64,000 nt of DNA from Planctomycetota bacterium (GTDB lineage: Bacteria; Planctomycetota; JAJSAM01; JAJVHW01): the NCBI GenBank assembly GCA_021414065.1, contig JAIOPE010000146.1:1-64000 (forward strand). Reading direction: 5' to 3'. Both the position numbers and the translations under genes were made by a program. Shown here in pieces: positions 171 through 19,238 of this stretch. Position 1 is the first letter of the stretch, and each line of letters starts with the position of its first letter. The notes beneath the pieces are model-generated. The model was not told the origin of the DNA and made no database searches. It worked only from the letters and a program-made list of their open reading frames with translations.

Positions 171-3100
171 TCACGGACGGACGAGCGCGGCGGCGTTCGT
201 CGCGTTCTTCGGGCTCGCGTTCCAGAGACCGTCATCGAGGTAGTCGATGGAGTCGTAGAGGAGCTCGAACGTCGAGCGACCGTTGTGCGCCCAGCTACCC
301 GGGTCCTTGTAGGTGAACTGGTAGTTGTGGGCGCCGTAGATCATGAACTTGTCGAACTGAGCGTACCGGTCCGACGTCGTGATCACGCCGTCGGCGTTGA
401 GGTCGTCCGGGAGTCCGTTGCCGTCGTTGTCACGGAACCAGTAGGGGTTCGTGTTCCCGTCGTACAGCGGCTTGCCCTTGCCCTTGCGGGTGGCGTACGC
501 CTCGAGAGCCTTCAGCAGCGACGCCTGGTAGGCGTGGACCTCGTCCGAGAGCTTGGTCGTGGCAGCGTCGCCATCCATGTTCACGGTCAGGTCCGAGAGT
601 CCGGCACGCGTCGCACGATACGTCTCGATGTCCGTGCTCGCGCCGTGGCAGATCGTGCAGGTCGCGCCCGTCTCGGGCTCGAACTTGTGGGAGCCGTCCT
701 GCATGTGGCAGAAGGCGCACCGGGCCTCGTTCGGCATGCCGCCGGTCGGGTTCGTCGTGGCGTTGTAGTCCGTCCACGCCGTGGTGTTGTAGTGCGTCCA
801 GGGGCCGACGTACGTGCGGGCCGGGAAGGCCGTGGCCGCCTCGTCCGCAATGCCGGTCCAGACGTAGCCCACTCCGGCCTTCGTCGCGTACTGCGTGGCG
901 CCGGCGGGGAAGTAGTGGACGTTCGGGAAGCTGATCGCCTGCTGGTTCGTCGTGGCGACGATGCCGGCGTTGATCGAGAGCATCGACTGGCGACCCTGGT
1001 GGCAGGTCATGCAGATGAAGGACTCGTCAGGCGTCGTCGCGCTCGTGTTGATCGAGACGGCGTTGATCTGAGCCTGCGTGGACGGGATGATCGTCGTGCC
1101 CGAGGGGAGCTGGTACGGGAAGATCACCTTCGTGACGACGACCCGCGCCGGATCGGTCTTGAAGTCCGCTCCGACCACGTGGCAGGACTCGCACGGCATG
1201 CCGGACACCGTCGGCTGGGAGATCGTCGTGTCCATGCCGTACTTCACCCGGAAGCGGAAGCCCTCGAGGCTGTGGCACTTCGCGCAGCTCGAGGAAACGC
1301 CCGTGTCGTCCGCCCAGTCCGTGTAGGCGTCGGCCGAGCTGTCGAAGTGGCCGATGTCGTTGCGGACCATGCTCGCGAGGTTCACCGTGTAGCCGTTGGC
1401 GACCGTCACGTCGACCAGCGCGTGCGCGTCGAGGTCTGCGATCGAGTCGTACATCAGCTCGTTCAGGTACTTGCCGTTGTGGGCGAAGCCACCGGGGTCC
1501 TTCTTGAACATCTGGTAGTTGAACGCCGCCTTCACCAGGCGAGCGGTCCACTTCGCGTAGCCGCCCTCACCCGTGTCGATCGTGCCGTTCTCGTTCGTGT
1601 CGATGAAGAAGTACGGATACACGGCGCCGTCGTAGCCGATCGGCGATGCGTTCACGTCCTTCGCGTACTCCTTGATCGTCTTGAGCAGCACGTCGGAGGT
1701 GCCGACGAGCTCTTCGTACATGCCCTCGGTGGCGTTGCCGTCACCGTCGAAGTCGGAGACCGTGCCGGCCATGCGGACCTTGTGCAGGTCGTCGATCGCG
1801 AGCTCGTACTTGGCCGGATCGGTGGCATTCGCCGGCGCGATCACGTGGCAGGTCACGCACTCGTTCACCTTGACCTTCAGGGTGTGCGGGTCGTGGCACC
1901 GGATGCAGGTGTCGTAGTCCTCGACGTGCGTGAACTTCTTCTCGTACGCCTTGCCCGTGTACTCGTAGCCCACACCGGCCTCGCGGCCGTAGAGCGTCGC
2001 GGCTGCGGCGAAGTAGTGGATGTTCTTGAAGCCGATCTTGTTCGTGCCGGTCGTGACCGGAAGATCGACGTCGATCGGGTTCAGCGTCGCGAGCGTGGCC
2101 GGCGCGACCGGCGGCGTCGAGAACGCGAGCGCGATCATCGAGTCGAGCGTGTACTTCGACTCGCGACCCTGGTGGCAGATCATGCAGCGCGACTCGTCAC
2201 CGATGCCGGTGATCGTCTTCGGGGTTGTGGCAGGCAGAAGGCCCGCGACCGTGTTGCCCGTCGCGGTGAACGTGACCTGCGTCAGGTTCGCGGTGCCTGC
2301 GTTGTGGCAGGTCTCGCAGTCCACCGTGCGCCCCACTGCGGGCGCGACGTTGACGACGCCGGCGGCCGTGCCGTCAACGCCGAGGAAGTCGCGGTATCCG
2401 GCGCCGGAGTGGCACTTGGCGCAAGACGTCGGGACAACGGCCGGGATGTCGTTGTTCCAGTGAGCAAACGGCTCCGTGGTGACGGCCGAGTGCTTCGAGC
2501 TCAGCCAGAGCTGCCGCTTGTCGTCAGCCGTGCCGCGCGCGATGTCAACGACGCCGAAGCCCCACGTCCGCGTGCCCTTCGGGGCCGTGAACTTCACGAC
2601 CAGGTCGATCGGGTCGTTCGCGGTGCCGGAGTTGGCGACCGTGACGCGGTACCGGCCGTCGGCCGGGATCGCGAGCTTGCGGATGAGAGCGCCGGCGGTG
2701 ATGGTCAGGGCGCCGTTCGGGCCGGAGACCGCCGAGACCGTCGGGACGGCGGCGCTGTTCTTCGCCTTCTTCACCGCGATGTCCACCGTGGAGCCGGCGG
2801 GGGCGCCGAACTCGTACGTGGTCGCCGTGGTGAGCTGCGTGGCGAACGTCTTCGGCCAGGTGGCCTTGGTCGTCAGGCGGTACGCGCCCGTGCCCGCCGT
2901 GGACACGACCTTGAAGCCGTAGCTCCCGCGGTTCGTGAGCGCGAAGTTCTTGATCGCCGTGCCGGTTCCCGCCGTGCCGACGTCAACGTTCGCGCCGGCC
3001 GCGTCCACCAGGCTGACCGCCGCCGTGAGACCCGAGGTCTTCAGGAGCGGCTTGACCAGCGTCGAGACCTTCGTCGTCTCCGGGGCGAAGAACGAGAACA

Positions 3101-3281
3101 CGTGGCTCTCACTCCCCGCCGCCGCTGCGAACTCCGCCCCGATGCTGTCGCCCAGGCGGATCTTCTGCGTGCCGTCCCATGCCGCACCGGCAGGAACGGC
3201 GATCAGGGCCGCGAACGCCGCGACCACCGCGGCCCGGCCCAGATTGCGGGGCGTTGCTCGCCCTGCTCCGTTTGCACTCAT
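171..3281 (-). CDS. secreted decaheme c-type cytochrome (paralog 1)
   Basis: 1036 aa ORF with signal peptide; 10 CxxCH motifs (CAKCH, CETCH, CMICH, CIRCH, CVTCH, CAKCH, CESCH, CMTCH, CAFCH, CTICH); AGGAGG Shine-Dalgarno (SD) before ATG at 3281. Confidence 0.95.
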   Translation of the reverse strand: MSANGAGRATPRNLGRAAVVAAFAALIAVPAGAAWDGTQKIRLGDSIGAEFAAAAGSESHVFSFFAPETTKVSTLVKPLLKTSGLTAAVSLVDAAGANVDVGTAGTGTAIKNFALTNRGSYGFKVVSTAGTGAYRLTTKATWPKTFATQLTTATTYEFGAPAGSTVDIAVKKAKNSAAVPTVSAVSGPNGALTITAGALIRKLAIPADGRYRVTVANSGTANDPIDLVVKFTAPKGTRTWGFGVVDIARGTADDKRQLWLSSKHSAVTTEPFAHWNNDIPAVVPTSCAKCHSGAGYRDFLGVDGTAAGVVNVAPAVGRTVDCETCHNAGTANLTQVTFTATGNTVAGLLPATTPKTITGIGDESRCMICHQGRESKYTLDSMIALAFSTPPVAPATLATLNPIDVDLPVTTGTNKIGFKNIHYFAAAATLYGREAGVGYEYTGKAYEKKFTHVEDYDTCIRCHDPHTLKVKVNECVTCHVIAPANATDPAKYELAIDDLHKVRMAGTVSDFDGDGNATEGMYEELVGTSDVLLKTIKEYAKDVNASPIGYDGAVYPYFFIDTNENGTIDTGEGGYAKWTARLVKAAFNYQMFKKDPGGFAHNGKYLNELMYDSIADLDAHALVDVTVANGYTVNLASMVRNDIGHFDSSADAYTDWADDTGVSSSCAKCHSLEGFRFRVKYGMDTTISQPTVSGMPCESCHVVGADFKTDPARVVVTKVIFPYQLPSGTTIIPSTQAQINAVSINTSATTPDESFICMTCHQGRQSMLSINAGIVATTNQQAISFPNVHYFPAGATQYATKAGVGYVWTGIADEAATAFPARTYVGPWTHYNTTAWTDYNATTNPTGGMPNEARCAFCHMQDGSHKFEPETGATCTICHGASTDIETYRATRAGLSDLTVNMDGDAATTKLSDEVHAYQASLLKALEAYATRKGKGKPLYDGNTNPYWFRDNDGNGLPDDLNADGVITTSDRYAQFDKFMIYGAHNYQFTYKDPGSWAHNGRSTFELLYDSIDYLDDGLWNASPKNATNAAALVRP

Positions 3282-3326
3282 CTCGCACCTCCTGACCGAT
3301 CCGTTTTCGGGAGTCGGCCTATTGAT
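3279..3326 (-). promoter_or_regulatory. conserved 5' leader with hairpin, paralog 1
   Basis: 48 nt identical to 6759-6806; RNA GGCCGA-CTC-CCG-AAAA-CGG-A-TCGGTC can form a hairpin just upstream of the SD. Confidence 0.6.
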
Positions 3327-3498: not shown

Positions 3499-3634
3499 TC
3501 CGGAGCTCGGGCCTACCTCGTCGGGATCCCCGCGGCGACGGCCGCCGTGTCGGCTCCTCGGTCCGGCCCGGCTCGTCTGCGAGTTCGGTGCGACCCCAGA
3601 ATCGGAAAGGCCCGGGAGGTCTTCCTCCCGGGCC
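3499..3634. repeat. dispersed intergenic repeat, copy B
   Basis: Same core as copy A, including the terminal terminator hairpin. Confidence 0.85.
3609..3634 (-). terminator. probable intrinsic terminator of decaheme paralog 2
   Basis: 11-bp stem identical to 110-135. Confidence 0.75.
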
Positions 3635-3662
3635 AGTAGAGACTTGGTCGCCTTCAGTGAGT

Positions 3663-6600
3663 CTAGTTCGTGATCGGGCGGACGAGCGGCGCGCCGTTGG
3701 TCGGGTTCACAGGGCTCCCGTTCCACAGCTCGTCGTCCATGTAGTCGATCGCGTCGTAGAGGTACTGCATGGTGTAGCGCGGGTTGTGCGCCCAGCTACC
3801 GGCGTCGCGATAGGCCATCGTGAGGTCGTGCGAAGCGTACACCATGTACTTGTCCATGTTCGAGTAGCGGATGTAGCCCGTGGCCGGGGCGACGGCCGGG
3901 TCAGGCAGGCCGTCGAGGTCCTGGTCGCGGAACCAGTACGGGCTCGAATACTGGTGCTCGAAGAACACGATGCCGGGCTTCGCCTTGCGAGCGGCGTAGG
4001 CCTGGATCTTGGCGTACAGGGCGTCCTTGAATACCTGAACTTCCTGGACGAGCTCGGTCGTGGCCGCGTTGCCGTCGAAGTCGATCGAGAGGGAGGTCAG
4101 GCCACCGGCGCTGGCGCGGTAGGTCTCGATCGTGCCGTTGCCGTGGCAGAGCTTGCAGCTCGTGCCGGTCTCGGGCTCGAACTTGTGGGAGCCGTCCTGC
4201 ATGTGGCAGAACGTGCACTGGGCCTCAGCCGGCATGCCGCTGTTCGCGACCGACGAGCTGTAGCCGACCCACGCGTTCGCGTTGTAGTGCGTCCAGGGCG
4301 CCGCGTACTTGCGGGCCACCGGGAAGGCGGCGGCCGTCGAGTCCGTGATGCCGGACCAGGGGTACGCCACTCCGGCCTTCGTCGAGTACTGCGTCGCACC
4401 CGCGGGGAAGTAGTGGACGTGCTGGAACTGCAGCGTCTGCGGGTTCGTGGCCGCGGCGACGTAGATGTCGATCGAGATCTTCGACTGACGGCCCTGGTGG
4501 CAGGTCATGCACACGAAGGAGTCGTCCGGCGTCGTCGGGTTGTTGTTGATCGTCACGCCCGTGATCTGCGTGCTCGTGGCGGTCGTCGGGTACGTCATGA
4601 ACGCGACCTTGTCGACGTAGACCCGCGCGGGGTCGGTCTTGAAGTCAGCGCCGACCACGTGGCAGGACTCGCAGAGCATCCCGGCCACCGTCGGCTGGGA
4701 GATCGTCGTGTCGATGCCGTACTTCACCCGGAAGCGGAAGCCCTCGAGGCTGTGGCAGCGAGCGCAGCTCGAGGTCACGCCCGTGTCGTCCGCCCAGTCC
4801 GTGTAGGCGTCGGCCGAGGTGTCGAAGTGCCCGACGTCGTTGCGGACCATGCCGGCGAGGTTCACCGTGTAGCCGTTGGCGACCGTCACATCGACCAGCG
4901 CGTGCGCGTCGAGGTCGGTGATCGAGTCGTACATCAGCTCGTTCAGGTACTTGCCGTTGTGGGCGAAGCCGCCCGGGTCCTTCTTGAACATCTGGTAGTT
5001 GAACGCCGCCTTCACGAGGCGAGCGGTCCACTTCGCGTAGCCGCCCTCACCCGTGTCGATCGTGCCGTTCTCGTTCGTGTCCGCGAAGAAGTACGGATAC
5101 ACCGCGCCGTCGTAGCCGATCGGGGCCGCGTTCACGTCCTTCGCGTACTCCTTGATCGCCTTGAGCAGCACGTCGGAGGTGCCGACGAGTTCCTCGTACA
5201 GGCCCTCGGTGGCGTTGCCGTCACCGTCGAAGTCGGAGATCGTGCCGGCCATACGAGCGCCGTGCAGGTCGTGGATCGCGTCTTCGTACTTGGTCGGGTC
5301 AGTGACGTTCGCCGGAGCGATGTCGTGGCACGTCGCGCATTCGCTGATCTTCACCTTGAGCGTGTGCGGGTCGTGGCACTTGATGCAGGAGTCGTAGTCC
5401 TCGACGTGCGTGAACTTCTTCTCGTACGCCTTGCCGTCGTACTCGTAGCCCACGCTCGCGTCACGGCCGTAAAGCGTCGCGGCGGCGGCGAAGTAGTGGA
5501 TGTTCTTGAAGCCGATCGTCCCATCGCCGTCGGAGCTGGAGGTGTCCACCGCGTCCACGTCGATCGGGAGGAGCGTCTTCGGAGTCGTCGTCCCGTCCAC
5601 GAACGCCAGCGAGATCATCGAGTCGAGCGTGTACTTCGACTCGCGGCCCTGGTGGCAGACCATGCAGCGCGACTCGTCGCCGATGCCCGTGATCGTCGTC
5701 GGCGTGACCGGCGCGAGCGGAGCCGTCGGGGCGAGGTTGCCCGTCGCGGCGAACGTGACCGTGGTCAGGTTCGCGGTGCCGGCGTTGTGGCACGCCGCGC
5801 AGTCAACCACGCGGCCGAGCGCGGCCGCATTGTTCACGGTCCCCGCGGCCGTGCCGTCGACGCCGAGGAAGTCCTCGTAGCCGGCGCCGCTGTGGCACTT
5901 GGCGCAAGACGTCGGGATGACGGCCGGAATGTCGTTGTTCCAGTGCGCAAACGCCTCGGTGGCGAGCGCCGCGTGCTTCGAGCTCTCCCAGAGCTTGCGC
6001 TTCGCGTTGTCCGTCGCGGGCGATGCAGTCGCCGTGCCGAACGCCCAGACGCGCGCGCTCTTCGGGGCCGTGAACTTCACGACCAGGTCGATCGGCGCGC
6101 CGGCCGTGCCGGCATTCGCCACGGTGACGCGGTAGCGGCCATCGACCGGGATGGCGAGCTTGCGGATCAGAGCGCCGGCCGTGATGGTCAGCGCGCCGCT
6201 CGGTCCAGCGACCGCCGAAACCGTCGGTGCAGCCGCGCTCCCCTTCGCCTTCTTCACCGAGATGTCCACCGTCGATCCGGCGGGGGCGCCGAACTCGTAG
6301 GTGAGCGCCGTGGTGAGCTGCGTGGCGAACGTCTTCGGCCACGTGGCCTTGGTCGTCAGGCGGTACTCGCCGGTGCCGGCCGTGGACACGACCTTGAAGC
6401 CGTAGTTCCCACGATTCGCGATCACGAAGTTCTTGATCGCCGTGGGCGTGCCCGCGGCACCGAGGTCCACGTTCGCGCCGGCCCCGTCCACAAGACTGAC
6501 CGCCGCAGCGAGACCCGAGGTCTTCACGAGCGGCTTGACCAGCGTCGACACCTTCGTCGTCTCAGGGGCGTAGAACGAGAACACGTGGCTCTCGGCTCCC

Positions 6601-6761
6601 GCCGCTGCGGCGAACTCCGCCCCGACGCTGTCGCCCAGGCGGATCTTCTGCGTGCCGTCCCATGCCGCACCGGCAGGAACGGTCATCAGGGCCGCGAACG
6701 CCGCGACCACCGCGGCCCGGCCCAGATTGCGGGGCGTTGCTCGCCCTGCGTTTGCTCTCAT
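3663..6761 (-). CDS. secreted decaheme c-type cytochrome (paralog 2)
   Basis: ORF extends to 6857, but MRANAGRATPRN... at 6761 has an AGGAGG SD and aligns with paralog 1; 10 CxxCH motifs. Confidence 0.95.
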   Translation of the reverse strand: MRANAGRATPRNLGRAAVVAAFAALMTVPAGAAWDGTQKIRLGDSVGAEFAAAAGAESHVFSFYAPETTKVSTLVKPLVKTSGLAAAVSLVDGAGANVDLGAAGTPTAIKNFVIANRGNYGFKVVSTAGTGEYRLTTKATWPKTFATQLTTALTYEFGAPAGSTVDISVKKAKGSAAAPTVSAVAGPSGALTITAGALIRKLAIPVDGRYRVTVANAGTAGAPIDLVVKFTAPKSARVWAFGTATASPATDNAKRKLWESSKHAALATEAFAHWNNDIPAVIPTSCAKCHSGAGYEDFLGVDGTAAGTVNNAAALGRVVDCAACHNAGTANLTTVTFAATGNLAPTAPLAPVTPTTITGIGDESRCMVCHQGRESKYTLDSMISLAFVDGTTTPKTLLPIDVDAVDTSSSDGDGTIGFKNIHYFAAAATLYGRDASVGYEYDGKAYEKKFTHVEDYDSCIKCHDPHTLKVKISECATCHDIAPANVTDPTKYEDAIHDLHGARMAGTISDFDGDGNATEGLYEELVGTSDVLLKAIKEYAKDVNAAPIGYDGAVYPYFFADTNENGTIDTGEGGYAKWTARLVKAAFNYQMFKKDPGGFAHNGKYLNELMYDSITDLDAHALVDVTVANGYTVNLAGMVRNDVGHFDTSADAYTDWADDTGVTSSCARCHSLEGFRFRVKYGIDTTISQPTVAGMLCESCHVVGADFKTDPARVYVDKVAFMTYPTTATSTQITGVTINNNPTTPDDSFVCMTCHQGRQSKISIDIYVAAATNPQTLQFQHVHYFPAGATQYSTKAGVAYPWSGITDSTAAAFPVARKYAAPWTHYNANAWVGYSSSVANSGMPAEAQCTFCHMQDGSHKFEPETGTSCKLCHGNGTIETYRASAGGLTSLSIDFDGNAATTELVQEVQVFKDALYAKIQAYAARKAKPGIVFFEHQYSSPYWFRDQDLDGLPDPAVAPATGYIRYSNMDKYMVYASHDLTMAYRDAGSWAHNPRYTMQYLYDAIDYMDDELWNGSPVNPTNGAPLVRPITN

Positions 6762-6806
6762 CTCGCACCTCCTGACCGATCCGTTTTCGGGAGTCGGCCT
6801 ATTGAT
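6759..6806 (-). promoter_or_regulatory. conserved 5' leader with hairpin, paralog 2
   Basis: 48 nt identical to 3279-3326. Confidence 0.6.
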
Positions 6807-6914
6807 TGAGCGAGAAGGTAACGAGGGGTCGGCTCGGGCCCTCGCGACATGGATCACGCACCCCCATGGAATCGAGGCGGGCCCTGGAGAAGAGCCTCCA
6901 GAGCCCGTGGTCTC

Positions 6915-6952
6915 GGCCGGGTGTCCGTGACGAAAATCACGGACACCCGGCC
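6915..6952 (-). terminator. strong intergenic hairpin after the 13-heme gene
   Basis: Perfect 16-bp stem GGCCGGGTGTCCGTGA/TCACGGACACCCGGCC with 6-nt loop; no clear U-tract. Confidence 0.6.
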
Positions 6953-6964
6953 AGTCGCTTCGGA

Positions 6965-9900
6965 TCAGCGCATAACCGCCGCCGGGATTGCCGCTGGATT
7001 CAACTCACGAATGGACCGCTGGAGGAGCTGAATGGACCGCACGGCGTTGTGTACGCCCTTGCTGGCGTCGTACGTCACCGTGTACCAGTTGTACGCGGCC
7101 CGCTTCTGCGCGTCGCTCGCTCCGGTCATCTTGTGGTCGGTCGCGGCGTTGTACTCGAAGGACCCGCCGGCAAACGTCACGTTCGCCGTGCCCGTCAGCG
7201 TGACCTGCAGCGCGTTGAGCAGGCCCGCGATCTCCGTCTGTATCCCCTCGAGCACTCCGTCGCCGTCCCAGTCGCTCAGCGACGGACGGTCGAACGTGGA
7301 CACGCCGTGACAAGCGCTGCACGTCTGGACCTGCGCACCGAACTGGTGCGTCTGCCCGCCCATGGTCTTGTTGAAGTGGCAGGTCACGCAACCGTCCGTG
7401 AATGCGGAGTGGAAGGAACTGGTGTACGCGGGAGCGCCTGGGACCTCGGCTCCCGCCGTCCCGGCCATCATCTCCTTCATCGGGTGGCGCACCTGCTCGC
7501 CGTACTGCTGAAAGTCAGCGAACACAACGCTCTGGGCGTTGTGGCACTGTCCGCAGAGCTGGGCCTTCGGGAGCCGGAGAGGGTTCGTGCCCGCCGCAAA
7601 CGTGCCGTCGGCCTTCTTGCCGTGGCAGGCATCGCACGAGATGCCCTTGTAGCGGGCGTAGGCCTTCTTCAGGATCGCGTCGGACTTCGCCTGGTCGATC
7701 GTCTCGCCGTTCACCTGCACGCGAACGAAGCCCTCCGTCGTGTGGCACTGCACGCAGAAGAGCCCGCCGTTGCGGTTCGGGTTCGCGATGCCGTTCTGGA
7801 AGTTGCGCGGGCGGTCGGCGTGGAACGTGCCGTCCTTGTCCGCGTTGTCGGTCGCCCACTGCGCGATGATCGGTCCGACGATGTCCGACGGACCCGTCGG
7901 GTGGCACACGTTGCAGGAGTTCGTGGGGCCGACGAGCGTCTCGTTCCCGCCGCCGTCCTTCGTCGAGAGCGCGCGGCTCACACGCGGGTTCACGGTCTGG
8001 AACGTGTGGACGTGTTCGTCGCCGCCGAGTGTGAACCCGGCCTTGTCGGTCACGTTGACGGCTGTCTTCTCCATCGTCGGCATGTGGCACGTCTCGCAGC
8101 GGCCGACGCCCGTCCCTGCGGGGTCGTAGAGCGCGAGCGACGACACCGGCATCCCGATGTCTTTCATGTGGTCGTTGACCGCCTGCTTCACGGAGTCGGG
8201 CGTGGTACCCGAACCGATTTGCGCGACGTCGGCCAGCGTCAGCGACCCGTAGGGCGCGAAGCCCGCGTGGCAGGAGAGGCAGAGACTGTTGTCGGCCGCG
8301 CCCGTCTTCACCGCGACCTTGGCGCCGGTCGCGCCGCGCTGAACGGTCGCACGGATCATGTACTTGGAGTTGCGCACGTGCGGGTCGTGGCAGTCGAAGC
8401 AGGTCGGCGAGAAGCCGGCGACCGGACCGTGGTTGCCCTGCGTCAGGTCGAGCGACTGCTGGCGGTGCGACCTCGATGCGATCCACGTGAAGTCGTCATG
8501 CTCGGACACCGACGGATTGGGGTCCGTGTAGAAGAGCTTCGCCGACTGACCCCAGTAGTCGGTGGACGTCTTGGTGATGTCGAAGAAGTTGCGGTGCGTG
8601 TCGCCGAACTTGGCGACGCCGTTCGCGGCGGTCCATCCGAACCCGGCCTTCTGGAACGCCGTCTCGGCGACGCCCGGGTAGGCGTCCTTCGCCGTGCCGC
8701 GCGTGTGGCAACGGCCGCACACCTCGTTCGCCTTCGCGACGCCGGCGGGCGTACCGTCGATGAACGCGCGCGGGTTCCGGATCTTCGTCTTGTCTCCGAG
8801 GCCTTCAACGTGCTCCTTGCCGGGCCCGTGACACTGCTCGCAGCCGATGTTGAAGTCAACGTGGCCGACCTGGAACTGGCCGCTCGCAGAGACGAGCATC
8901 TCGCCGGTGTTGTGACATCCGGAGCAGCGCGCGTTGAAGCCCTGCGATTGCGGGGGCATCGTGCCGCCGCTCCACTTCGGGGTCGTCGCCGGAGTGCCCG
9001 AGTACCAGTCGCCGGGGTCGTACGTCGCGTAGAGGCCCGTGGAGTCGTTGAACTGCACGGGGGACGGGTACAACTCGGTTCCGATCGCGACGAGGTAGCG
9101 CTGCTTCCACTGGCCGTTGCCGCCCATGACTCGCGCGACGTCGTACCGCACTGAACCGATCGTGATCTTGTACGGGAGGATGTCGCCGGCGACGTGGCTG
9201 AGCTTCGGGGCGTTCGCGCCGTAGGTGGCGAACGCGGGAACCGTCGCAAGGTCGAGTCCGTCACGGAAATCGTCGATGCCGTTCTTGTCCACGTCGTTGA
9301 CGAACGCCTTGCCTGTGAGACCGGGGCGGTCCCACGTGCGGGCCGCGAGGTTGTGGAGCGAAGCCGCCCATCCGCGGAAGATCTCGTCGTGGCACCGGCC
9401 GCAGGGGTCGGACCCGACGTAGCCGGGCAGCGCCGCGAGCGCGGGACTGCCCTTGTCCACGATGAAGGGCGACGTTCCCGCGGATGCGGGCAGGGTGTGC
9501 GTGGACTTCGGGAGCGCCGGGTTCTTGAACGCGAACTTCAGTTGCACGTCCCCGACCGCGCCGTCGTTGCGCCAGACGACCGTGTATCGGCCGTCGGCGG
9601 GCAGCGCGACGTCCTTCGCGGTGGACCCCTTCGCCGTCGTGGCTGCAGCGGTGTAGACCGCGGCGCCATCGGGGCCGAGGATCGACTCGATGACCGGGCG
9701 CGCACGACTGCGTCCGCGCGGCATCACGGACACGCTGACCGTCGCTCCGCCGACTCCGTGGAATCGGAACTCGTTCGCGCCCTCGGGCGCCGAAGCGACG
9801 ATCCCGACGGCGGACGTCGCGACGCCACCGGACGTCTGGAGCACGTACCCGCCCGTTCCGGACGACGACGCCACCTCGATGGTGAAGTAACCGGAGAACG

Positions 9901-10258: not shown

Positions 10259-10507
10259 GCTGTCTCCTCCAGATCGGGCGTCCTGGCGCCCAGGGTCAGT
10301 GCCGCGAGTATCCCCGCCCTGCGATCGGAGGCGCAAATCGAGACCGCCTGCCGGAAGGAAAGCGTCAAGTACGTGACTTCAGTGGCAGGCGCGGCCGTTG
10401 GCGGGCGCGCCGGGACGCCCGTCGGTGCCGGAATCGGACGGGACGCGCATCCAGGCGACGACAGCATGCCGCCAGAGCGCGTCCCGCGTACGAACCCGGT
10501 CCCGTCG

Positions 10508-11161
10508 CTACTTCTTCGGGTGGTCGTGGGTCTTCGACTTGGCCTCTTCGTACTTGAACTCGGCCTTCGTCGGGTTGTCGGCGTTGTGGCACGTCTCGCA
10601 GACCTTCGCCTCGGGCTTCGTCATGCCCATCGGGGCGAGCGTCTCGAGGGTGAACTTGGCGTCCTTGTTCTTCTCGAGCTCCGCTGTCTTGTGCTTCACG
10701 TAGAGGCTGCCCGGGCCGTGGCAGGACTCGCAGCCGACGCCGCCGAGCGCCGCGGCGCGCTTGCCGGCCGCTTCGTCGGCCTTCGGATCGGCGGGGTAGC
10801 CGGTCTCCGTGCCGTAGCCGGTCGTATGGCACTTCAGGCACGTCGCGTCGGACGTGTAGTCCTTCGCGGGGTCGAGTTTCGCGGCGGTCTTCTTGTCGAA
10901 GAGCGCCTTGTCGTCGGCCTCGGCCGTCGGAGCGAGCGACTTCATCGCCTTCGCCATCGACGTCTTCTTCCAGCTCTTGTGCTCCTGGAAGTGGCACTTC
11001 TGGCAGGCCTTGTCGCCGACGTACGTCGGCTTGTCCCCGGCGGAGGACGCGGCGTCCTCTGCGGGAGTCCGCGCTGCGGCGAACGTGACGAGCAGGGCGG
11101 CGACCGCGGTCAGTGCGAATGCACCCGTGAACGTGCCTGCGAACTCTCGGATCTGCTTCAC
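10508..11161 (-). CDS. tetraheme cytochrome c554-like protein
   Basis: 217 aa, GTG start, signal peptide, four CxxCH motifs (CQKCH, CLKCH, CESCH, CETCH) with c554-type spacing. Confidence 0.9.
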   Translation of the reverse strand: MKQIREFAGTFTGAFALTAVAALLVTFAAARTPAEDAASSAGDKPTYVGDKACQKCHFQEHKSWKKTSMAKAMKSLAPTAEADDKALFDKKTAAKLDPAKDYTSDATCLKCHTTGYGTETGYPADPKADEAAGKRAAALGGVGCESCHGPGSLYVKHKTAELEKNKDAKFTLETLAPMGMTKPEAKVCETCHNADNPTKAEFKYEEAKSKTHDHPKK

Positions 11162-11242: not shown

Positions 11243-12838
11243 TCAGCGGTGGCACTCGTTGCAGTTCTGGTCGTTCACCGGGTGCTTCATCGTGTCGTGG
11301 CAGAGGAGGCACTCCCAGTCGGGGCGGTGCCCGGAGGGCTTCGCCGGCGCGAGGCGGTGCGAGGGCGTTGCGTCGTGGCACGCGGCGCAGGACTCGCCAG
11401 CCGACCCCGGCTCGATGTGACAGTTCAGGCAGTGCCGAGCGCGGGCGCCGCCCCACGACCCTGTGTGCGACCGCGGCGGGTTCGTGGTGTGGCACTCGAC
11501 GCAGGCGTCCTGCTGGTGGCAGGCGGCGCAGCGCTGGCGATCCATCGACGCCGCGAGTCCGTGGCCCGGGCCGGCGCGCCACACGGTCGAGTGGTCGCGG
11601 GGCTTCTCCTCGCGGTGGCACTCGATGCACGTGTTCTCGGTGTGACACATCGAGCACGTCTCGGATCGGCCCTCGGGGGCCCCGCGGCGGACGATCTGAC
11701 CGTGGCGAACGTCCCACAGCTTGTCGTGACTCGCGGGCTTCGTGGACGAGTGGCAATCGGAGCAGGACTTCTGCGTGTGGCACATCGCGCACGTCTCGCC
11801 GCTTCCGGTGAACTCGCCCGCCTTCACGATGCCGCCGTGCCGGGTCTGCCACGACGTGTCGTGATTCGCGGGACGCGTCTTCGCGTGGCAGGTGGTGCAC
11901 GTCTGCTGCGTGTGGCACATGGCGCAGGACTCACCGCTGCCGGTGAACTTCCCGGCCTTCACGACGGCGCCGTGGCGCCCCTGCCACGCCTTGTCGTGGT
12001 TGATGGCCGGGGTCTTCGCGTGGCAGTCGGCGCAGGTCTGCTCGGTGTGGCACATCGCGCAGTTGTCGGCCGTGCGGGCGGACTTCCCGGCCACGGTCTT
12101 CCCGGTGCGGACGAGCGGACCGTGCAGGCCCTTCCACTTCGGGTCGTGGGTGGACGGTGCGGTCTTCTGGCCGATCGTCTTGTGGCACTGCGCGCAGTCC
12201 TTCGGACCGTTCTGCTTCTCGTGGCACGAGACGCACCCGGCCATGGTCAGCGCGAGTTCGGGGCCGGTGCGAGTGCTCTCTTCGATGCCGGCGTGGCACT
12301 GGCCGCAGGCGACCTTCTTGTCGCCGTGGGGTTTGTGGCTGAAGTGGACGAACGCGGGCTGCTTCGTGAACTGGCTCCAGCGAGGGTTGCCGCTCGCCGG
12401 GTCGAGGAACGACTTCGCCGTCTTCTCAGGCGGCTTCTTCGCGTCGATCTCCTCGTGGCACTCGATGCACTGATCCATCGTGGGCATGCCCGCGTGTTCC
12501 TTCGTCTCCGCGCCCTCGTGGCAATCGGTGCACGTCGGCCCGCGGGCCACGTGCGCCTTGTGATCGAAGTCGGCCCAGGTGCGCGCGGGCTTCAGCATCA
12601 CGGCTGCGACCGCGGCCGGCGCCACGACGACGCCCAGCTTCTGCGGCGCAGGCTTCATCGCTGCGACGTCGAGGACCGCCGGCGCCTTCACGCCTGCCGG
12701 CGCTGCGGCGGCGGGCGCCTTTGCGGATGCTGTGTCGCCCGACGGGAACAGGCGGCTGCAGCCCGACGTCGATACCACGGCGGCCACGGCGGCGAGCGCC
12801 GCGAGACCGTTCAGCAGGACGATGTGGAGTTTGCGCAT
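11243..12838 (-). CDS. multiheme c-type cytochrome lipoprotein (19 CxxCH)
   Basis: Start MRKLHIVLLNG; lipobox-like VSTSGC; 19 CxxCH motifs; repeated unit CAMCHTxxTCxxCHxxTxPxxHDxxWxxRHGxxVxxGxFTGSGE. Confidence 0.93.
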   Translation of the reverse strand: MRKLHIVLLNGLAALAAVAAVVSTSGCSRLFPSGDTASAKAPAAAAPAGVKAPAVLDVAAMKPAPQKLGVVVAPAAVAAVMLKPARTWADFDHKAHVARGPTCTDCHEGAETKEHAGMPTMDQCIECHEEIDAKKPPEKTAKSFLDPASGNPRWSQFTKQPAFVHFSHKPHGDKKVACGQCHAGIEESTRTGPELALTMAGCVSCHEKQNGPKDCAQCHKTIGQKTAPSTHDPKWKGLHGPLVRTGKTVAGKSARTADNCAMCHTEQTCADCHAKTPAINHDKAWQGRHGAVVKAGKFTGSGESCAMCHTQQTCTTCHAKTRPANHDTSWQTRHGGIVKAGEFTGSGETCAMCHTQKSCSDCHSSTKPASHDKLWDVRHGQIVRRGAPEGRSETCSMCHTENTCIECHREEKPRDHSTVWRAGPGHGLAASMDRQRCAACHQQDACVECHTTNPPRSHTGSWGGARARHCLNCHIEPGSAGESCAACHDATPSHRLAPAKPSGHRPDWECLLCHDTMKHPVNDQNCNECHR

Positions 12839-12842
12839 GGGT

Positions 12843-14372
12843 TCAGAACTCGACCGCGAGGCCCAGTGAGAGCACATGGTCGGTCTCCTTCTCGTCACGT
12901 TCCCAGGAGTAGCGGATGTCCATCGTGAGGTCCTCGGAGAGCTGGGCGTTCACGCGCACGTACGCCGTCCGCAGGTGCGTCCGCTCGCCGCTCTGCAAGC
13001 GTCCTTCGTCGTACAGCGTGTAGTCCGTTCCGACCGAGAGACGCGCCGACCCGCCGAAGCGGTGCGTCAGGTCGCACGTCCACGTGCGGATCGTATCGGA
13101 GTCGTTGCCCTTCCAGACTTCCCCGCCGACGGAGAGCGTCGAGCCCTTCCACGGCAGGTCGTCCACCGACGGCATCAGCCAGAACCGCGTGGTCTCGCGG
13201 TTGTAGGTGCCTTCGTCGTTCGCGTTCACGAGTCGCTTCGCAGCGGCCCCGGCTTCGACCGACCAGTTCCCGCCCATCGCCTCGCCGAGTCCCTTCACGG
13301 CCCGGATGTCGGCCTGGTGGTAGCGGTAGAGGGTCTTCAGGATCGTCGTGTAGGGGTCGAACTCCGTCGCGAGGTGCTTCTGGTCGTCGAGAAGACGCTT
13401 GTAGCCGACCTGGACGAGCAGGTCCTGGTCGGGGAAGTTCCCGGTGGCGCGGACGAGCGCGTCGCGCGGCCCGTCGAGCCAGGTGAAGCGGCCGTGCAGG
13501 TCCACGTTCGGCGTGAGCGCGTGCCAGACGGACGCCGCCGCCAAGTCGTTGCGCTCGTTCGTGTAGCCCGCGAGGTCGTCCTCGACGTGAGCGTAGTCCA
13601 GAGCAGCGCGACCGCCCTTCCACGGGGCGGCCGTGGCGCGGAGACCGCCGAGCCAGTCGCCGGACGACTGCGCCTCGTAGAAGTGAACGGGCTTGCCCGC
13701 GTAGCCGAGGAGTCGGAGGTTCGTGCCGCGGTCGAGCTGGGACGACGTCGCGGAGACGCCGTCGAACTGGAACGTTTCGGCCGCGTACACGTACTGGCGG
13801 CCGATCTTCGCCGCCTCCACCGGGCCGCACCCGCGGCGCCACGTGACGTACCCGGTGTAGACCTGTGTCGTGAACTCGTTGCCGTACGTGTCGGCGAGCG
13901 ACGACCAGCGCGAGCCCGTGCGACCGTCGGGGCGCGAACCGATGTCCCACGCGCTGCGCGCGCTGAACGTCGCGGAGAGCGGGTCCTTCTGTTCGTCGCC
14001 GACGCGCAGATCGAGGTGCGTGTAGAGGTCGAAGTCGTCCGATTCGCGCGCGGGCACGCCGTTCCCGGGAAGGAACCGCGCCTCCCACCGGAACGAGACG
14101 CGGCCGTGCACCGGCGCGCCGACGAGTCCTTCGACCGCGTTGCGCAGGGCGCTCCGCTCGACGCCGGGAGCCTCGGAACGAGGCGTCGGCTCGGACTCCC
14201 ACGTCGCGGCCTTCAGCACGTCCTGCGGGGACCAGGTCGGCGTGCCCCCCGTCAACGGTTGCTCGTCGCCGGCCCGGGCCGGAGCCCCGGCGGCGACCAT
14301 CCCGGCAAGGACCGCGAGCGCGAGCCCGGTTCGTCCTGCGCGGCTGACTCCATCACGACGACGACGGGTCAT
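12843..14372 (-). CDS. outer-membrane beta-barrel protein (porin-cytochrome conduit type)
   Basis: Signal peptide; alternating amphipathic strands; C-terminal Phe (SLGLAVEF); directly upstream of the 19-heme lipoprotein; AGGAGG SD. Confidence 0.8.
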   Translation of the reverse strand: MTRRRRDGVSRAGRTGLALAVLAGMVAAGAPARAGDEQPLTGGTPTWSPQDVLKAATWESEPTPRSEAPGVERSALRNAVEGLVGAPVHGRVSFRWEARFLPGNGVPARESDDFDLYTHLDLRVGDEQKDPLSATFSARSAWDIGSRPDGRTGSRWSSLADTYGNEFTTQVYTGYVTWRRGCGPVEAAKIGRQYVYAAETFQFDGVSATSSQLDRGTNLRLLGYAGKPVHFYEAQSSGDWLGGLRATAAPWKGGRAALDYAHVEDDLAGYTNERNDLAAASVWHALTPNVDLHGRFTWLDGPRDALVRATGNFPDQDLLVQVGYKRLLDDQKHLATEFDPYTTILKTLYRYHQADIRAVKGLGEAMGGNWSVEAGAAAKRLVNANDEGTYNRETTRFWLMPSVDDLPWKGSTLSVGGEVWKGNDSDTIRTWTCDLTHRFGGSARLSVGTDYTLYDEGRLQSGERTHLRTAYVRVNAQLSEDLTMDIRYSWERDEKETDHVLSLGLAVEF

Positions 14373-14395
14373 TCCTGCCTCCTCCGCGGCGCGCC

Positions 14396-17221
14396 TCACG
14401 GCCGCCCCGACAGCAGTGCGTACGCGATCCCCACGACGAGCGCCAGCCCGACGGCCAGCGCGACGGCTCCGAGCACCTTGACGCCGCGCACCATGTGCGC
14501 CGGCGGCGAAGCAACCAAGTGAGCGTCGAGCGTTCCCGCAGCCTTCATCGCCTCAAGCTCCCGCGGACGCTCGAACTCCAGTTCGTCGATCGCAATGCTC
14601 CCTGTGAAGATCGAGACGTCCATGGGGAAGCGATCCGGCCGGAACTGCGTGTTGAAGAAGTGCGTCGTGAAGATGAACGCGACCGCGAGCAGGGCCTCGT
14701 CGCCGTGGACGATCGACGCCACGTTGAGCGCCCAGCCCGGCAGAATGCGCGTCGATGCCTGCGGGAACCAGAGCATCAGCCCCGACGACCCGATGATCAC
14801 GATGCCCCAGAACACGGCGAAGTAGTCGAACTTCTCCCAGTACGTGAACCGGCCGTAGCGAGGCCGCGGACCGCGCCCGAGGAACCACTTCATCGTCTCG
14901 ACGAACTCCACGCCGTCGCGCGCGCTGAACATCATCGAGTCCGGTCCGAAGCAGAGTTGCTTCCACGACCAGCCCCACTCCTTCCGCATCTTCGTGAGAT
15001 CCCAGATGTGGAACGCGAAGAGGCCCAGCAGGAAGACCGCCGCCACGCGGTGCAGCACGCCCATGTGGCCGAACCCGCCGAAGAACGACGAGACCGCCTG
15101 AGCCCAGCCGGCCCAGCCGAACTTCAGCGCCATTCCTGTGAGTGCGAGCGTGAGGAAGCTCACGACCATCACGATGTGCATCGTGCTCTGCGTCGGCGAG
15201 AACCGACGGTAGACCTTCGTGTGCGGGTCCTTCAGCGTCGCGAGCATCTTCGCGCGGTGCGGGCCCCACTCGCTGCGAGTGGACCAGAGACGCAGGAGCC
15301 AGAGCACCGTGTGAACGGCCGCGATGGCCATCGTGCCGAGAAGCAGGCCGGTCATCGCGCGGTACGTCCAGTAGAGCCACGGTTCGTCGGAGTCGTTGTG
15401 GTCGCCGTGCGGCATGTACTTCGCGAATCCGGCGTGCGCCCCCTGGTGACACTGGCCGCACGTGGCAACCAGGTTGGCGGGGTTCGTTCGCGACGCAGCG
15501 TCCGACGACAGGAGCACGTCGTGCGTGCCGTGGCAGTTGAAGCACTTCGCCGCGACTGCGCCGCCGAGTTGCGTCATCTTGCCGTGGAACGTCTCGAAGT
15601 ACGTCTCCGACTGCTTTTCGTGGCATTCAGCGCACTGGCCGATCACGCGCATGCGGAAGTCGGCACCACCGGTGCGGCTGATCTTGTGCGCCGTGTGGCA
15701 GCTCTCGCAGGTCGGGAGCGTGCGACCGGGCTCCAGCTTCACGTTGCCGGGCCAGTGGACGCTCTTGCGCAGCTTCTCCTCGACGCCCGCGTGACAGGCT
15801 CCGCAGGTGGCGGCGAGCTTCGCCGGGTTCACGGACGACGTCGGGTCCGTCGGCGGCAACTCGCGGTGCGACGAGTGACAGCTCACGCACGTTGCGCTGA
15901 CGATCAGTCCCGCCTTCGTGAGCCCCTCGCCGTGCACGCTGTCGGCGTACGAACCGACGATGTCGGCGACATCTCCCTTGATGCGGATGGCCGCCTTCTC
16001 ACCTTCGCGGTGGCACTTGCCGCAGAGCGTCGGCACGTTGCGGGCATACGTCGGCGACGTCGGCTCCTTCTTGCTCTGCGTGGTGTGCTTCGCGTGGCAG
16101 TCGAGGCAGACGGGGGCGTCCTTGTCGTTCTTCGCGTGAAGCTGACCGTGCATGCTCTCGCTGTACGCCTTCGACTGGTCGGCGTGGCAGGCGGCGCAGT
16201 CCACCGGCTTCCCCGGCAGCGTCTCGCAGGCGCGGTTCCTCGACGGATCCACCTTTGAGTGGCACTGCGCGCAGCCGGTCTTCCCGTGCGTGGACTTCGA
16301 GTAGGCCTCGATGTCCACGTAGAGCGAGACCGACTTCCCGTCCTTCGTCATCACGAGGTCGGTCTTCTCGTGGCAGCCGGACTTCATGCAGTCCTTGTTC
16401 GCCGCGAGCGTGGGGTACTCCGGGCGTCGGGTCTTGTGCGGCTGGTGGCAGTCCACGCACACCGGGATCTTGTTCGGCTCGGCCTCCCACAGCTTGCCGT
16501 CGATCACCTTGCGGTGGACGCGCTCGATCTGCGCGTGGCACTTGAGGCAGGTCTTGACCAGGTTCGCCGGGTTGATGCTCGACTTCGGGTCGGTGTGCGG
16601 GCGGATCTCGTGGGATGTGTGGCAGGTCGTGCAGACCGCAGTGACGATCAGCCCCTTCTGGAACAGGCCTTCTCCGTGCATTCCGCCCGAGTAGTTCTCG
16701 AGGATCTTGTCCTGCGGAATGTCGTGCGTGCGGGAAACCGGTGATCCCTCGTGGTGGCACTGGCCGCAGAGGATCGGGATGTTCGTGATGTACGTCGCCG
16801 CGGTCGGGTCGGTGTGCCGCTTCACGTCGTGACCCGTGTGGCAGTCGTAGCAGTGCGGCGCCATCGGGTCGCCGGCGGCGAGTTTCACACCGTGGCGACT
16901 GGCTGCGTGCTGCTCCGCCTGCGGGTCGTGGCACTCGCCGCAGTTCACGGGCTCGAGCTTCGCCTTGTGCGGGAACTCGGAGCCGTCGAGGTCCTGGTGG
17001 CAGTGAATGCACTGGACCTTGCCGCCGTGGACCGACGCGCCGAGCGACTTCATATCCACGAGCGGCGGCTTGCGCCCGCCTTCGATCGCGGGCTTCGCCT
17101 CGGGGTTGCCGTGGCAGCGGAGGCACTCGGCGTCCTCCTGCGCGAACGCGGGAGAGACGGCGGCCGCGACAAGCAACGCCGCGGCCGCGAGAACAGACGA
17201 CAGAACCCGTTGCACTCTCAC
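14396..17221 (-). CDS. multiheme c-type cytochrome fused to C-terminal membrane cytochrome b domain (CbcL-like)
   Basis: GTG start 8 nt after GGAGG; 18 CxxCH plus one CMKSGCH; several C-terminal TM helices with conserved His (LHRVAAVFLLGLFAFH, TTHFFNTQF). Confidence 0.9.
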   Translation of the reverse strand: MRVQRVLSSVLAAAALLVAAAVSPAFAQEDAECLRCHGNPEAKPAIEGGRKPPLVDMKSLGASVHGGKVQCIHCHQDLDGSEFPHKAKLEPVNCGECHDPQAEQHAASRHGVKLAAGDPMAPHCYDCHTGHDVKRHTDPTAATYITNIPILCGQCHHEGSPVSRTHDIPQDKILENYSGGMHGEGLFQKGLIVTAVCTTCHTSHEIRPHTDPKSSINPANLVKTCLKCHAQIERVHRKVIDGKLWEAEPNKIPVCVDCHQPHKTRRPEYPTLAANKDCMKSGCHEKTDLVMTKDGKSVSLYVDIEAYSKSTHGKTGCAQCHSKVDPSRNRACETLPGKPVDCAACHADQSKAYSESMHGQLHAKNDKDAPVCLDCHAKHTTQSKKEPTSPTYARNVPTLCGKCHREGEKAAIRIKGDVADIVGSYADSVHGEGLTKAGLIVSATCVSCHSSHRELPPTDPTSSVNPAKLAATCGACHAGVEEKLRKSVHWPGNVKLEPGRTLPTCESCHTAHKISRTGGADFRMRVIGQCAECHEKQSETYFETFHGKMTQLGGAVAAKCFNCHGTHDVLLSSDAASRTNPANLVATCGQCHQGAHAGFAKYMPHGDHNDSDEPWLYWTYRAMTGLLLGTMAIAAVHTVLWLLRLWSTRSEWGPHRAKMLATLKDPHTKVYRRFSPTQSTMHIVMVVSFLTLALTGMALKFGWAGWAQAVSSFFGGFGHMGVLHRVAAVFLLGLFAFHIWDLTKMRKEWGWSWKQLCFGPDSMMFSARDGVEFVETMKWFLGRGPRPRYGRFTYWEKFDYFAVFWGIVIIGSSGLMLWFPQASTRILPGWALNVASIVHGDEALLAVAFIFTTHFFNTQFRPDRFPMDVSIFTGSIAIDELEFERPRELEAMKAAGTLDAHLVASPPAHMVRGVKVLGAVALAVGLALVVGIAYALLSGRP

Positions 17222-17222
17222 G

Positions 17223-19238
17223 TCACACGCCTCCGGTGTCGTTCGGCCCGCCGTGCCCCGACTCGTGATGTTGCGAGGGGTCGGCGGCCTGCTGCGGCGG
17301 GACACGGTAGCCCGAGTCGCGGATGCGTTCGAACTCCTCGGGGTGCGCGTGCTTCATCTCGTCCTCCGTGAGCTTGCCCGTCATCCAGGTGACGCTCATC
17401 GGGTACTCCGCGGGATGGAAGATCACGAAGAAGAAGTGCCACACGATGATCGCGCCGACTGCGAGGATCGCCTCGTAGTAGTGGATCCTCTCCGCGACGA
17501 AGACCATCCATCGCGGCATCCACGCCGTCACCTCGACCTTGAACCAGAGCATCGAGCCGGTCACGAGCATGACCACGCCGCCCCACGCGAGCGCCCAGTA
17601 CTCGAGCTTCATCGTGTAGTCCCACCGGTCGAACTTCGGCGGCGTCTTCGCCAGCCCCAGGTGGTAGAGCACGTTCTGCCGCGCGTCGCGGAGGTCCTGG
17701 AGCTTCGGGACGATCCGGCCGAATGCGTACCGGCCGTGCGGGCTCGCAATGATGTAGGCGACGTGGGCTACGGACGCGACCGCGAACACCACGCCCGCGA
17801 ACCGGTGGACCCACCCGCGGGCCGTCTCGCCGAAGCCGACTGCTGCGAGACCGTGCACCCACGCGGCGTCGGGGAACGTCAGGGCGAAGCCCGTGATCGC
17901 GAGAACGATGAACGAGAAGCCGACCGACGCGTGCACCCAGAGCTCGATCGGACGGAACCGCACGTAGGTCACCGAAGCCCGCTGCGCCCTCAGCTTCGCG
18001 CGGACGTGCTTGAACCAGATGAGCCCGTTGTGCAGCGCCATGCCGCCGAGCGTGAGCGGGATGACGAGCATGTAGAAGAGCTTCACCCAGTAGGCGTAGA
18101 CGTCGGTGTCCGCCTCGGCCGTCGCGTGGACGCGTCCTTCGATGAAGCCCTGCGTGGCGCCCTCGTGGCAGTGCTGGCAGGTGGCGAGCAGGTTGTCCTT
18201 GTGGATGCGGGACTTCGGGTCGGTCGAGGGGCGGACGTCGTGGAATCCGTGGCACGACGCGCAGTTCGCCGCCTTGGCGGAGCCGCCGGAGTCGGCGAGC
18301 CCGTGGTAGCTGTCCCGGTAGGACGACACGCGGTCGGCGTCGAGTCCGTACTTCCTCACGATCCGTTCGGCGGCGTGGCAGTTGGCGCAGGTCTGGGAGA
18401 CGTGACGACCGTAGACGGTCGAGTCGATCGACTCCTTCTTCTGGATGCTGTGCTCGCTGTGGCAGTCGTTGCAGGCGGGCGACTCCATCCTGCCGCGCGC
18501 GAGCGCCGTCGCGTGGATGCTCCCGGAGAACTCGCCGGCTGCCTTCTCGTGGCAGGTGGCGCAGAGCTTGGGGATGTTGGGCTTGAAGGTCTTCGACGTC
18601 GGGTCGCCGCCCGGGCGCAGGTCGTGGATCGGGTGGCAGTCCACGCAGCCCGCGGCCTTCTCGTTGTGCTTCTCGAGCACCTCCACGCCGTGGACGCTCA
18701 GCGCGTACTGCGCGACCGTCTTCGCGATCCGGACTTCGCCGTCCTTCCGCGCGCCGCCGTGGCACTTCCCGCACGTCGAGGGCAGGTTGAACTTGTGGAC
18801 CGACGACTTCGGATCGGACTTCCTGAGCACCGCGTGCGGCGGGTGACAGGTCGAGCAGTTGGGCGCGTTCTTCGCCAAGTCCGGCGGCAGCTTCGCGTGC
18901 GGCGTCTTCTTGAACTTCTCGACGGAGTCCTCGTGGCAGTTCGCGCAGTTGACCGGGTCGGCCTTCTTCTTCGTGTGCGGAAGCTCCTCCATGTCCTCGT
19001 GGCACTGCACGCACGACTTCGCGTGAAGACTCGCCCCCCACTGCGCCGGGTCCACGCGCTTGCCCTCGGGGGCACCTTTCTTCGTGGCGCCCTCGGCGTG
19101 GCACGACAGGCACGACGCAGGCTCGTCCTGATCGTCCTGCGCCCACGCGGTCGGGGCGGCTCCCGCCGCGGCGGCGAAGGCCGCGGCGGCGAGCGCCCAC
19201 ACGGCAAGTCCCTTCAGCACGGCAGCGAGGCGATTCAT
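17223..19238 (-). CDS. multiheme c-type cytochrome (11 CxxCH) fused to C-terminal membrane cytochrome b domain (CbcL-like)
   Basis: Start MNRLAAVLKGL with signal peptide; 11 CxxCH; TM domain with His pairs (HRFAGVVFAVASVAHVAYI, HFFFVIFHPAEYPM); abuts the next gene. Confidence 0.9.
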   Translation of the reverse strand: MNRLAAVLKGLAVWALAAAAFAAAAGAAPTAWAQDDQDEPASCLSCHAEGATKKGAPEGKRVDPAQWGASLHAKSCVQCHEDMEELPHTKKKADPVNCANCHEDSVEKFKKTPHAKLPPDLAKNAPNCSTCHPPHAVLRKSDPKSSVHKFNLPSTCGKCHGGARKDGEVRIAKTVAQYALSVHGVEVLEKHNEKAAGCVDCHPIHDLRPGGDPTSKTFKPNIPKLCATCHEKAAGEFSGSIHATALARGRMESPACNDCHSEHSIQKKESIDSTVYGRHVSQTCANCHAAERIVRKYGLDADRVSSYRDSYHGLADSGGSAKAANCASCHGFHDVRPSTDPKSRIHKDNLLATCQHCHEGATQGFIEGRVHATAEADTDVYAYWVKLFYMLVIPLTLGGMALHNGLIWFKHVRAKLRAQRASVTYVRFRPIELWVHASVGFSFIVLAITGFALTFPDAAWVHGLAAVGFGETARGWVHRFAGVVFAVASVAHVAYIIASPHGRYAFGRIVPKLQDLRDARQNVLYHLGLAKTPPKFDRWDYTMKLEYWALAWGGVVMLVTGSMLWFKVEVTAWMPRWMVFVAERIHYYEAILAVGAIIVWHFFFVIFHPAEYPMSVTWMTGKLTEDEMKHAHPEEFERIRDSGYRVPPQQAADPSQHHESGHGGPNDTGGV

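Follow-up and report, generated by a model that had tools for sequence, protein, structure and literature searches.

What might a planctomycete do with some 86 heme-binding motifs gathered in eight neighboring genes? The question is raised by one end of a 64,000-nucleotide window of Planctomycetota DNA, corresponding to bases 1-64000 of contig C139 (JAIOPE010000146.1; 81,063 bases) in a draft genome of 5.5 Mb that is 88% complete. The genes, named here g1 to g8 in the order of their transcription, occupy positions 171-19238, all on the minus strand, and every open reading frame (ORF) is present where a first-pass annotation, made from the letters alone, had placed it. From g1 to g8 they contain 11, 18, 0, 19, 4, 13, 10 and 10 CxxCH motifs, 85 in total, and one extra CX4CH motif in g2 yields the number of about 86 that had been announced. 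We propose that the locus encodes a trans-envelope chain for the export of electrons to an extracellular acceptor, a reading drawn from sequence and models that we hold to be probable.

17223-19238, minus strand: g1, 671 aa, with a signal peptide, 11 CxxCH and a C-terminal cytochrome b561/Ni-hydrogenase-type membrane domain.
14396-17215, minus strand: g2, 939 aa, with a signal peptide, 18 CxxCH plus 1 CX4CH and a C-terminal cytochrome b domain.
12843-14399, minus strand: g3, 518 aa, with a signal peptide, a predicted 22-stranded outer-membrane beta-barrel ending in Phe (AlphaFold2).
11243-12838, minus strand: g4, 531 aa, a lipoprotein (lipobox STSG-C) with 19 CxxCH, the partner cytochrome of the barrel.
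10508-11161, minus strand: g5, 217 aa, a tetraheme protein of the cytochrome c554 family (PF13435) with a signal peptide, presumed periplasmic.
6965-10258, minus strand: g6, 1097 aa, a secreted 13-heme cytochrome with a double beta-sandwich-like N-terminal module.
3663-6761, minus strand: g7, 1032 aa, a secreted 10-heme cytochrome made of an N-terminal module and two tandem 5-heme modules.
171-3281, minus strand: g8, 1036 aa, a tandem paralog of g7 (75% identical) with 10 hemes.

In the proposed mechanism, the cytochrome b domains of g1 and g2 would oxidize menaquinol and pass the electrons along periplasmic heme strings, the soluble tetraheme g5 would carry them to g4, and g4, threaded through or docked in the barrel g3, would move them across the outer membrane. 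Outside, they would be taken up by the OcwA-like g6 and by g7 and g8, members of a tandemly amplified 10-heme family, and the acceptor would probably be Fe(III) or Mn(IV) minerals, humic quinones, an electrode or a partner cell. We infer this order of flow, its direction and the acceptor from features that could be computed, namely the heme content, the b-type domains, the barrel, the signal peptides and lipobox, the conserved pairing of g3 with g4, and the homology of g6 to surface Fe(III) reductases. Because the gene set is conserved in relatives, it is not a chance pattern. Homology likewise supports the layers assigned in the first-pass annotation (quinol oxidases, periplasmic tetraheme, barrel plus lipoprotein, secreted cytochromes) and its electron-transfer reading, and the hidden Markov model searches that it had advised place Pfam c-heme families above cut-off in all seven cytochromes, g3 alone having no family match.

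How would electrons cross the outer membrane? The AlphaFold2 model of g3, obtained from an alignment of five sequences, has 22 strands and a C-terminal Phe (pLDDT 69.7, pTM 0.63), and the Foldseek matches listed for it in the PDB are outer-membrane barrels only; an alternative internal start near 14300 is possible. By sequence, g3 has no match in Pfam, NCBIfam or the PDB. In 23/23 distinct relative loci examined, a g4 homolog with 12-17 hemes comes immediately after the barrel gene; in the automated adjacency check, 2 of 26 cases failed only through overextended ORF starts, and a g4 homolog is adjacent there too. The g3 profile matches 66 of 294 sampled Planctomycetota genomes, several of which belong to one family, and since the three of these that were tested carry hydrazine synthase (HZS_alpha), this family is taken to be an anammox one. 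In a hydrazine-synthase-bearing genome of this family (G093), a single contig of 4.406 Mb, the g3 profile reaches 1.6e-89, and the partner of the barrel (locus L045) has 338 aa and 14 hemes. These sizes recall the two-gene pcc cluster of Candidatus Kuenenia stuttgartiensis, which encodes a porin-like protein and a 12-14 heme cytochrome of 338-344 aa, and the strand number of g3 lies within the 18-22 predicted for published porins of porin-cytochrome complexes (Pcc) (PMC4245776). Because the adjacency, the strand range and the L045 partner all fit that cluster, and both partners are homologous to the anammox pair, g3-g4 can be classed as a putative Kuenenia-type Pcc pair, with the link to Kuenenia made through the match in size (338 aa, 14 hemes) and with a predicted role as a conduit, in which g4 would be inserted in g3.

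The pair shares with its Kuenenia counterpart the order of barrel and multiheme cytochrome and the presence of homologs of both in hydrazine-synthase genomes. It differs in that g4 has 19 hemes rather than 12-14, and the Kuenenia cluster is devoid of the two quinol-side fusions, the c554-type tetraheme and the three large secreted cytochromes found here. The additional hemes of g4 can be traced to one stretch:

11691-12095, minus strand: three tandem 135-nt (45-aa) repeats in g4 with two CxxCH each (direct repeats D7).

These repeats coincide with the gap region in the alignment of g4 to its 13-heme homologs (alignment A2), and they account for the 19 hemes in g4 versus 13 in the latter. The earlier statement that the locus matches no named cluster is thus correct for the whole set, but not for the barrel and lipoprotein, which correspond to the two-gene pcc cluster. 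With OmbB-OmaB-OmcB/ExtABCD of Geobacter and MtrCAB of Shewanella, the locus shares an overall plan of a barrel, a cytochrome threaded through it and another at the surface, but it lacks PF11854 and any match to a PDB barrel, and its surface cytochromes are others; the Geobacter porins were not compared by sequence. Membership of g3 in the MtrB/PioB family (MtrCAB/MtoAB/PioAB) was discarded, with no PF11854 match on g3 or in the genome. In the porin-multiheme cytochrome clusters of Verrucomicrobia, a related phylum, a barrel with at least 20 predicted strands also stands beside multiheme genes, but the partner there has eight hemes (PMC5615132; compared by description only). Porin-cytochrome complexes have been reported from genomes of anammox bacteria (PMC4245776, PMC7188810), which couple ammonium oxidation to electrodes by a route in which such a complex is proposed (PMC7188810), and from those of tunnel-biofilm Planctomycetota (PMC10732223); the combination found here was not described for Planctomycetota in the literature searched, which covered few subscription papers and preprints. 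In loci L034 (2271-15796) and L047 (1463-8829) of other Planctomycetota, the barrel/multiheme pair adjoins genes for twin-arginine-signal oxidoreductase-like and Fe-S proteins, which suggests that the conduit also serves other respiratory complexes.

Where would the electrons come from? The heme arrays of g1 and g2 are of the PF14522 type. The C-terminus of g1 scores 50.1 bits with PF01292 (cut-off 30.1) and that of g2 28.5 bits (E=1.5e-6), slightly under the cut-off; about six membrane segments are found in g2 and five hydrophobic ones past the signal peptide in g1. Four His residues of g2 (680, 722, 837 and 852), candidate ligands of b hemes, are conserved in the aligned sequences that cover them. 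The same build, an N-terminal multiheme c region joined to a b561-type membrane domain, characterizes the CbcL/MtrH/MtoC family. This family spans 15 phyla and 3-23 CX2CH motifs (PMC6295460), a range that includes the counts of g1 and g2; the likeness is one of architecture. What differs here is that two paralogs lie side by side, and relatives have single 10-11 heme homologs, 37-49% identical to g2. On this basis, g1 and g2 are predicted to carry out quinol oxidation or quinone reduction.

The family leaves the direction of flow unfixed, because its members occur both in Fe(III) reducers and in Fe(II) oxidizers (PMC6295460). The chain might thus run inward, taking electrons from a cathode, a partner cell or Fe(II) or Mn(II) outside the cell through g6-g8 and g3-g4 to reduce quinone at g1 and g2. 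MtoC, from Fe(II) oxidizers, belongs to the same family, no sequence feature tells the two directions apart (PMC6295460), and the host possesses possible terminal acceptors in two heme-copper oxidases and a nitrate reductase, whose NarH and NarI score over cut-off. Nevertheless, we regard inward flow as unlikely, since no RuBisCO large subunit was matched in the host genome (in an assembly 88% complete, other carbon-fixation pathways not being searched) and the closest homologs of g6 are Fe(III)-reducing surface proteins. For the export chain, a carrier between the quinol side and the conduit would be provided by g5, whose four hemes and match to PF13435 (64.1 bits; PDB 1bvb, E=1.1e-20) place it in the cytochrome c554 family. 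It aligns with cytochrome c554 of Nitrosomonas across the heme region, but it falls far under the cut-off of the NCBIfam c554 equivalog (95 of 400 bits), and there is no ammonia-oxidizer context here.

What would deliver the electrons outside? In a single-sequence phmmer comparison, g6 matches OcwA (6i5b) with E=6.4e-16, along stretches 297-329 (weak), 469-651 and 860-1109 (numbered from the ORF start at 10336), and with a profile the value becomes 3.5e-33. The same profile also finds 6qvm, which we take to be OmhA, at 1.2e-15 and NrfA at 4e-5; a relation to HAO is weaker than that to OcwA. OcwA, a terminal reductase of the cell surface, reduces Fe(III) oxide; its hemes 1-4 overlay cytochrome c554 and the remaining five NrfA (PMC6703420). 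The match of g6 covers both the c554-like and the NrfA-like heme groups, as in an OcwA-type protein, and four extra motifs lie between the two groups. Thus, g6 is a relative of OcwA but not its ortholog, because it has 13 CxxCH versus nine hemes. OmhA, a protein of an Fe(III)-reducing bacterium, is sheared off the surfaces of cells and minerals and sits at the cell-mineral interface (PMC7829351). While OcwA (from Thermincola) and OmhA (from Carboxydothermus ferrireducens) have a c554-like front and NrfA-like rear hemes as g6 does, they contain 9 and 11 hemes and not 13, and g6 is further set apart by its N-terminal double domain and by a host with an outer membrane.

Membership in what is, by homology, the NrfA/c554/HAO superfamily opens the possibility that g6-g8 act on soluble substrates, such as nitrite, hydroxylamine or other N or S oxides, as enzymes of the surface or periplasm, with the barrel serving for substrate passage or being incidental. 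The first-pass annotation had argued against catalysis from the lack of an NrfA CxxCK site and of any assignable catalytic domain. The motif count confirms that CxxCK, and with it the NrfA catalytic heme, is absent from g1-g8, but the second part does not stand, given the relation of g6 to OcwA and, more weakly, to NrfA and HAO. Nor does the argument itself hold, since OcwA, which also lacks CxxCK, slowly reduces nitrite and both reduces and oxidizes hydroxylamine (PMC6703420). The nitrite kcat of OcwA is, however, just 1 per minute (PMC6703420), NrfA-like/NrfH and NarGHI proteins are already encoded by the host, and a soluble periplasmic enzyme could do without a conserved barrel and its partner of 12-19 hemes, so that we rate dedicated soluble-substrate enzymes as quite improbable.

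In g7, the two halves derive from an internal duplication of a 5-heme module (E=2e-25), and the AlphaFold2 model has pLDDT values mostly of 80-95 in the heme region. A scan of 84,980 species genomes with a g7/g8 profile yielded 169 related stretches, 80 of which were kept. Chloroflexota account for most of these 80 loci, and further ones come from Acidimicrobiia, Myxococcota, Desulfobulbaceae and Planctomycetota. The common neighbors of the 10-heme gene in Chloroflexota are genes for a 9-heme protein and a cytochrome b, with no barrel adjoining; among the 80 loci, the barrel/g4 pair adjoins it only in four Planctomycetota loci. Across sampled genomes of the phylum, the barrel is present in 9/10 with a strong g7 match versus 57/284 others (Fisher p=8e-6, ignoring the relatedness of the genomes). 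Homologs of g3, g6 and g7 occur in 5/5 genomes of the host family. Of the synteny that had been suggested as a check, the g3-g4 adjacency is maintained, while the overall gene order varies among members of this family; in two of its genomes g3-g4 and g6-g7 lie on separate contigs, which suggests that the conduit and the surface cytochromes behave as separate modules. In one close relative, the cluster itself includes (L029, 11450-14592) genes for ResB and CcsA-like cytochrome c assembly proteins.

An N-terminal module is common to g6 and g7/g8 (30% identity over 215 aa, E=5e-15):

9400-10258, minus strand: shared double beta-sandwich-like module in g6.
5900-6761, minus strand: shared double beta-sandwich-like module in g7.
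2400-3281, minus strand: shared double beta-sandwich-like module in g8.

Several Planctomycetota have it in further large proteins as well, and the 10-heme homologs of Chloroflexota lack it; it is a candidate export or attachment domain. An assignment to the Pfam PPC domain was not retained (E=0.17 only), "PPC-like" being a visual impression.

The high heme count and the tandem amplification would be as fitting for a capacitor or bulk protein as for a conductor, and the cytochromes could accordingly serve mainly as an electron store or periplasmic network, with the barrel pair forming no conduit. That barrel and lipoprotein strictly co-occur in many families, and that Pcc and Mtr systems offer a precedent, makes this highly improbable.

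Some observations do weigh against export. Besides their signal peptides, g6-g8 have no recognizable outer-membrane anchor or other export signal, and their passage across the outer membrane and their location at the surface are, accordingly, put forward here as presumed. The g7 model found no significant structural match in the PDB with Foldseek, and its only sensible weak matches are nitrite reductases (NrfA), as enzymes for soluble substrates would have it; a reading of g7 as a double NrfA, hinted at by the five hemes and subsequent long helices of either half, has no statistical support and is not claimed. The g3 profile has no detectable sequence relation to any solved porin-cytochrome barrel in the PDB. 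Finally, genes for nitrate, nitrite and oxygen respiration are also found in the host, making export one option among several. Loci L152 and L155 (contigs C53 and C33) hold genes for a nitrate reductase of the NarGHJI type, with alternative-complex-III-like genes behind them, and for an NrfA-like/NrfH pair. The host genome also has five secretin matches and cytochrome c assembly proteins.

If electrons are indeed exported, the components could be integrated in a more specific, tentative model, to which we would give somewhat less than an even chance: a hybrid system in which a Kuenenia-type conduit feeds surface cytochromes of kinds known from single-membrane bacteria (OcwA-like and the Chloroflexota 10-heme family). 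The 45-residue two-heme repeats would let a single lipoprotein, the lengthened g4, wire much of the periplasm plus the outer membrane; the 10-heme family would have grown by amplification to a tandem array of three or more genes, and the N-terminal double domain shared by the surface cytochromes may aid their export or surface attachment. The Kuenenia-type porin-cytochrome pair, so far described from anammox bacteria, is extended here to many other Planctomycetota, as indicated by the barrel in 66/294 sampled genomes. Tied here to quinol-side and surface cytochromes, it constitutes a testable candidate export route in a phylum with little described non-anammox metal respiration, and the uncharacterized 10-heme family common in Chloroflexota is a candidate surface reductase.

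Are the eight genes expressed as a unit? The spacing between g1 and g4 is of about 8 nt or less (4 nt between g3 and g4), and 81 nt precede g5. Because g6, g7 and g8 are set apart by intervals of 200-400 nt with strong hairpins, the eight genes are not one operon. The elements involved are:

6878-6952, minus strand: two strong hairpins between g6 and g7, terminator-like or processing structures (RNA fold).
3609-3634, minus strand: 11-bp GC hairpin followed by UUU downstream of g7, terminator-like, a copy of the hairpin after g8 (repeat D13).
110-135, minus strand: 11-bp GC hairpin followed by UUU downstream of g8, terminator-like (RNA fold).
6746-6806, minus strand: 5' leader of g7, 97% identical over 61 nt to that of g8 (repeat D14).
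3266-3326, minus strand: 5' leader of g8 (repeat D14).

The g6-g7 gap (6830-6964) folds with -79.4 kcal/mol (z -5.4). Given the hairpins after g6, g7 and g8 and the near-identical leaders of g7 and g8, the latter two look like duplicated stand-alone transcription units rather than the tail of one operon. Rfam models identified no riboswitch at the cluster, and only two tRNAs elsewhere in the window.

Is the locus complete, as it had first been said to be? The claim lacks support, since the contig ends just past g8, and further multiheme genes lie on other contigs. The window starts inside a repeated intergenic element, 170 nt past g8, and contig C62, which breaks in the same hairpin element, carries at its end a third 10-heme paralog (1014 aa, 59.6% identity to g8) with the same leader type:

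2-158, no strand assigned: repeated intergenic element at the contig edge, with copies at 3500-3657 and on both flanks of the third paralog (contig C62).
6484-9528 of locus L153 (contig C62, host genome): third paralog of g7 and g8, 10 hemes.
15, 3513, 19483 and 21776 of the window, 6342 and 9676 of L153: copies of the intergenic element.

The core of this element, CTACCTCGTCGGGA, has 6 matches in the window with at most one mismatch versus 0.07 expected; the element is found upstream of g1, g8 and the third paralog, and matched no Rfam family. The adjacency of C62 and C139 is not claimed, since their shared ends are 92% identical and not identical, and for this reason further 10-heme copies may lie in the gap between them. 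As the window begins at base 1 of C139, the cluster may continue beyond it. A second multiheme cluster, on contig C1 (locus L050, 3481-12568), comprises a 9-heme lipoprotein, an Fe-S protein, an NrfD-like protein, a c554-type tetraheme (87% identity to g5), a split cytochrome b, and 9-heme and 16-heme proteins; pieces of this type of cluster adjoin the conduit cluster in two relatives (L031 and L048). Other multiheme proteins, with 9, 15 and 18 motifs, are encoded on contig C33 (L154), and the 9-heme one (1252 aa) is weakly similar to ExtM of a selenite/tellurite reduction operon. Elsewhere in the window, at 30270-32912, lies the gene of a large protein that contains two CxxCH motifs and matches the di-heme cytochrome c peroxidase/MauG domain PF03150 with E=2e-38.

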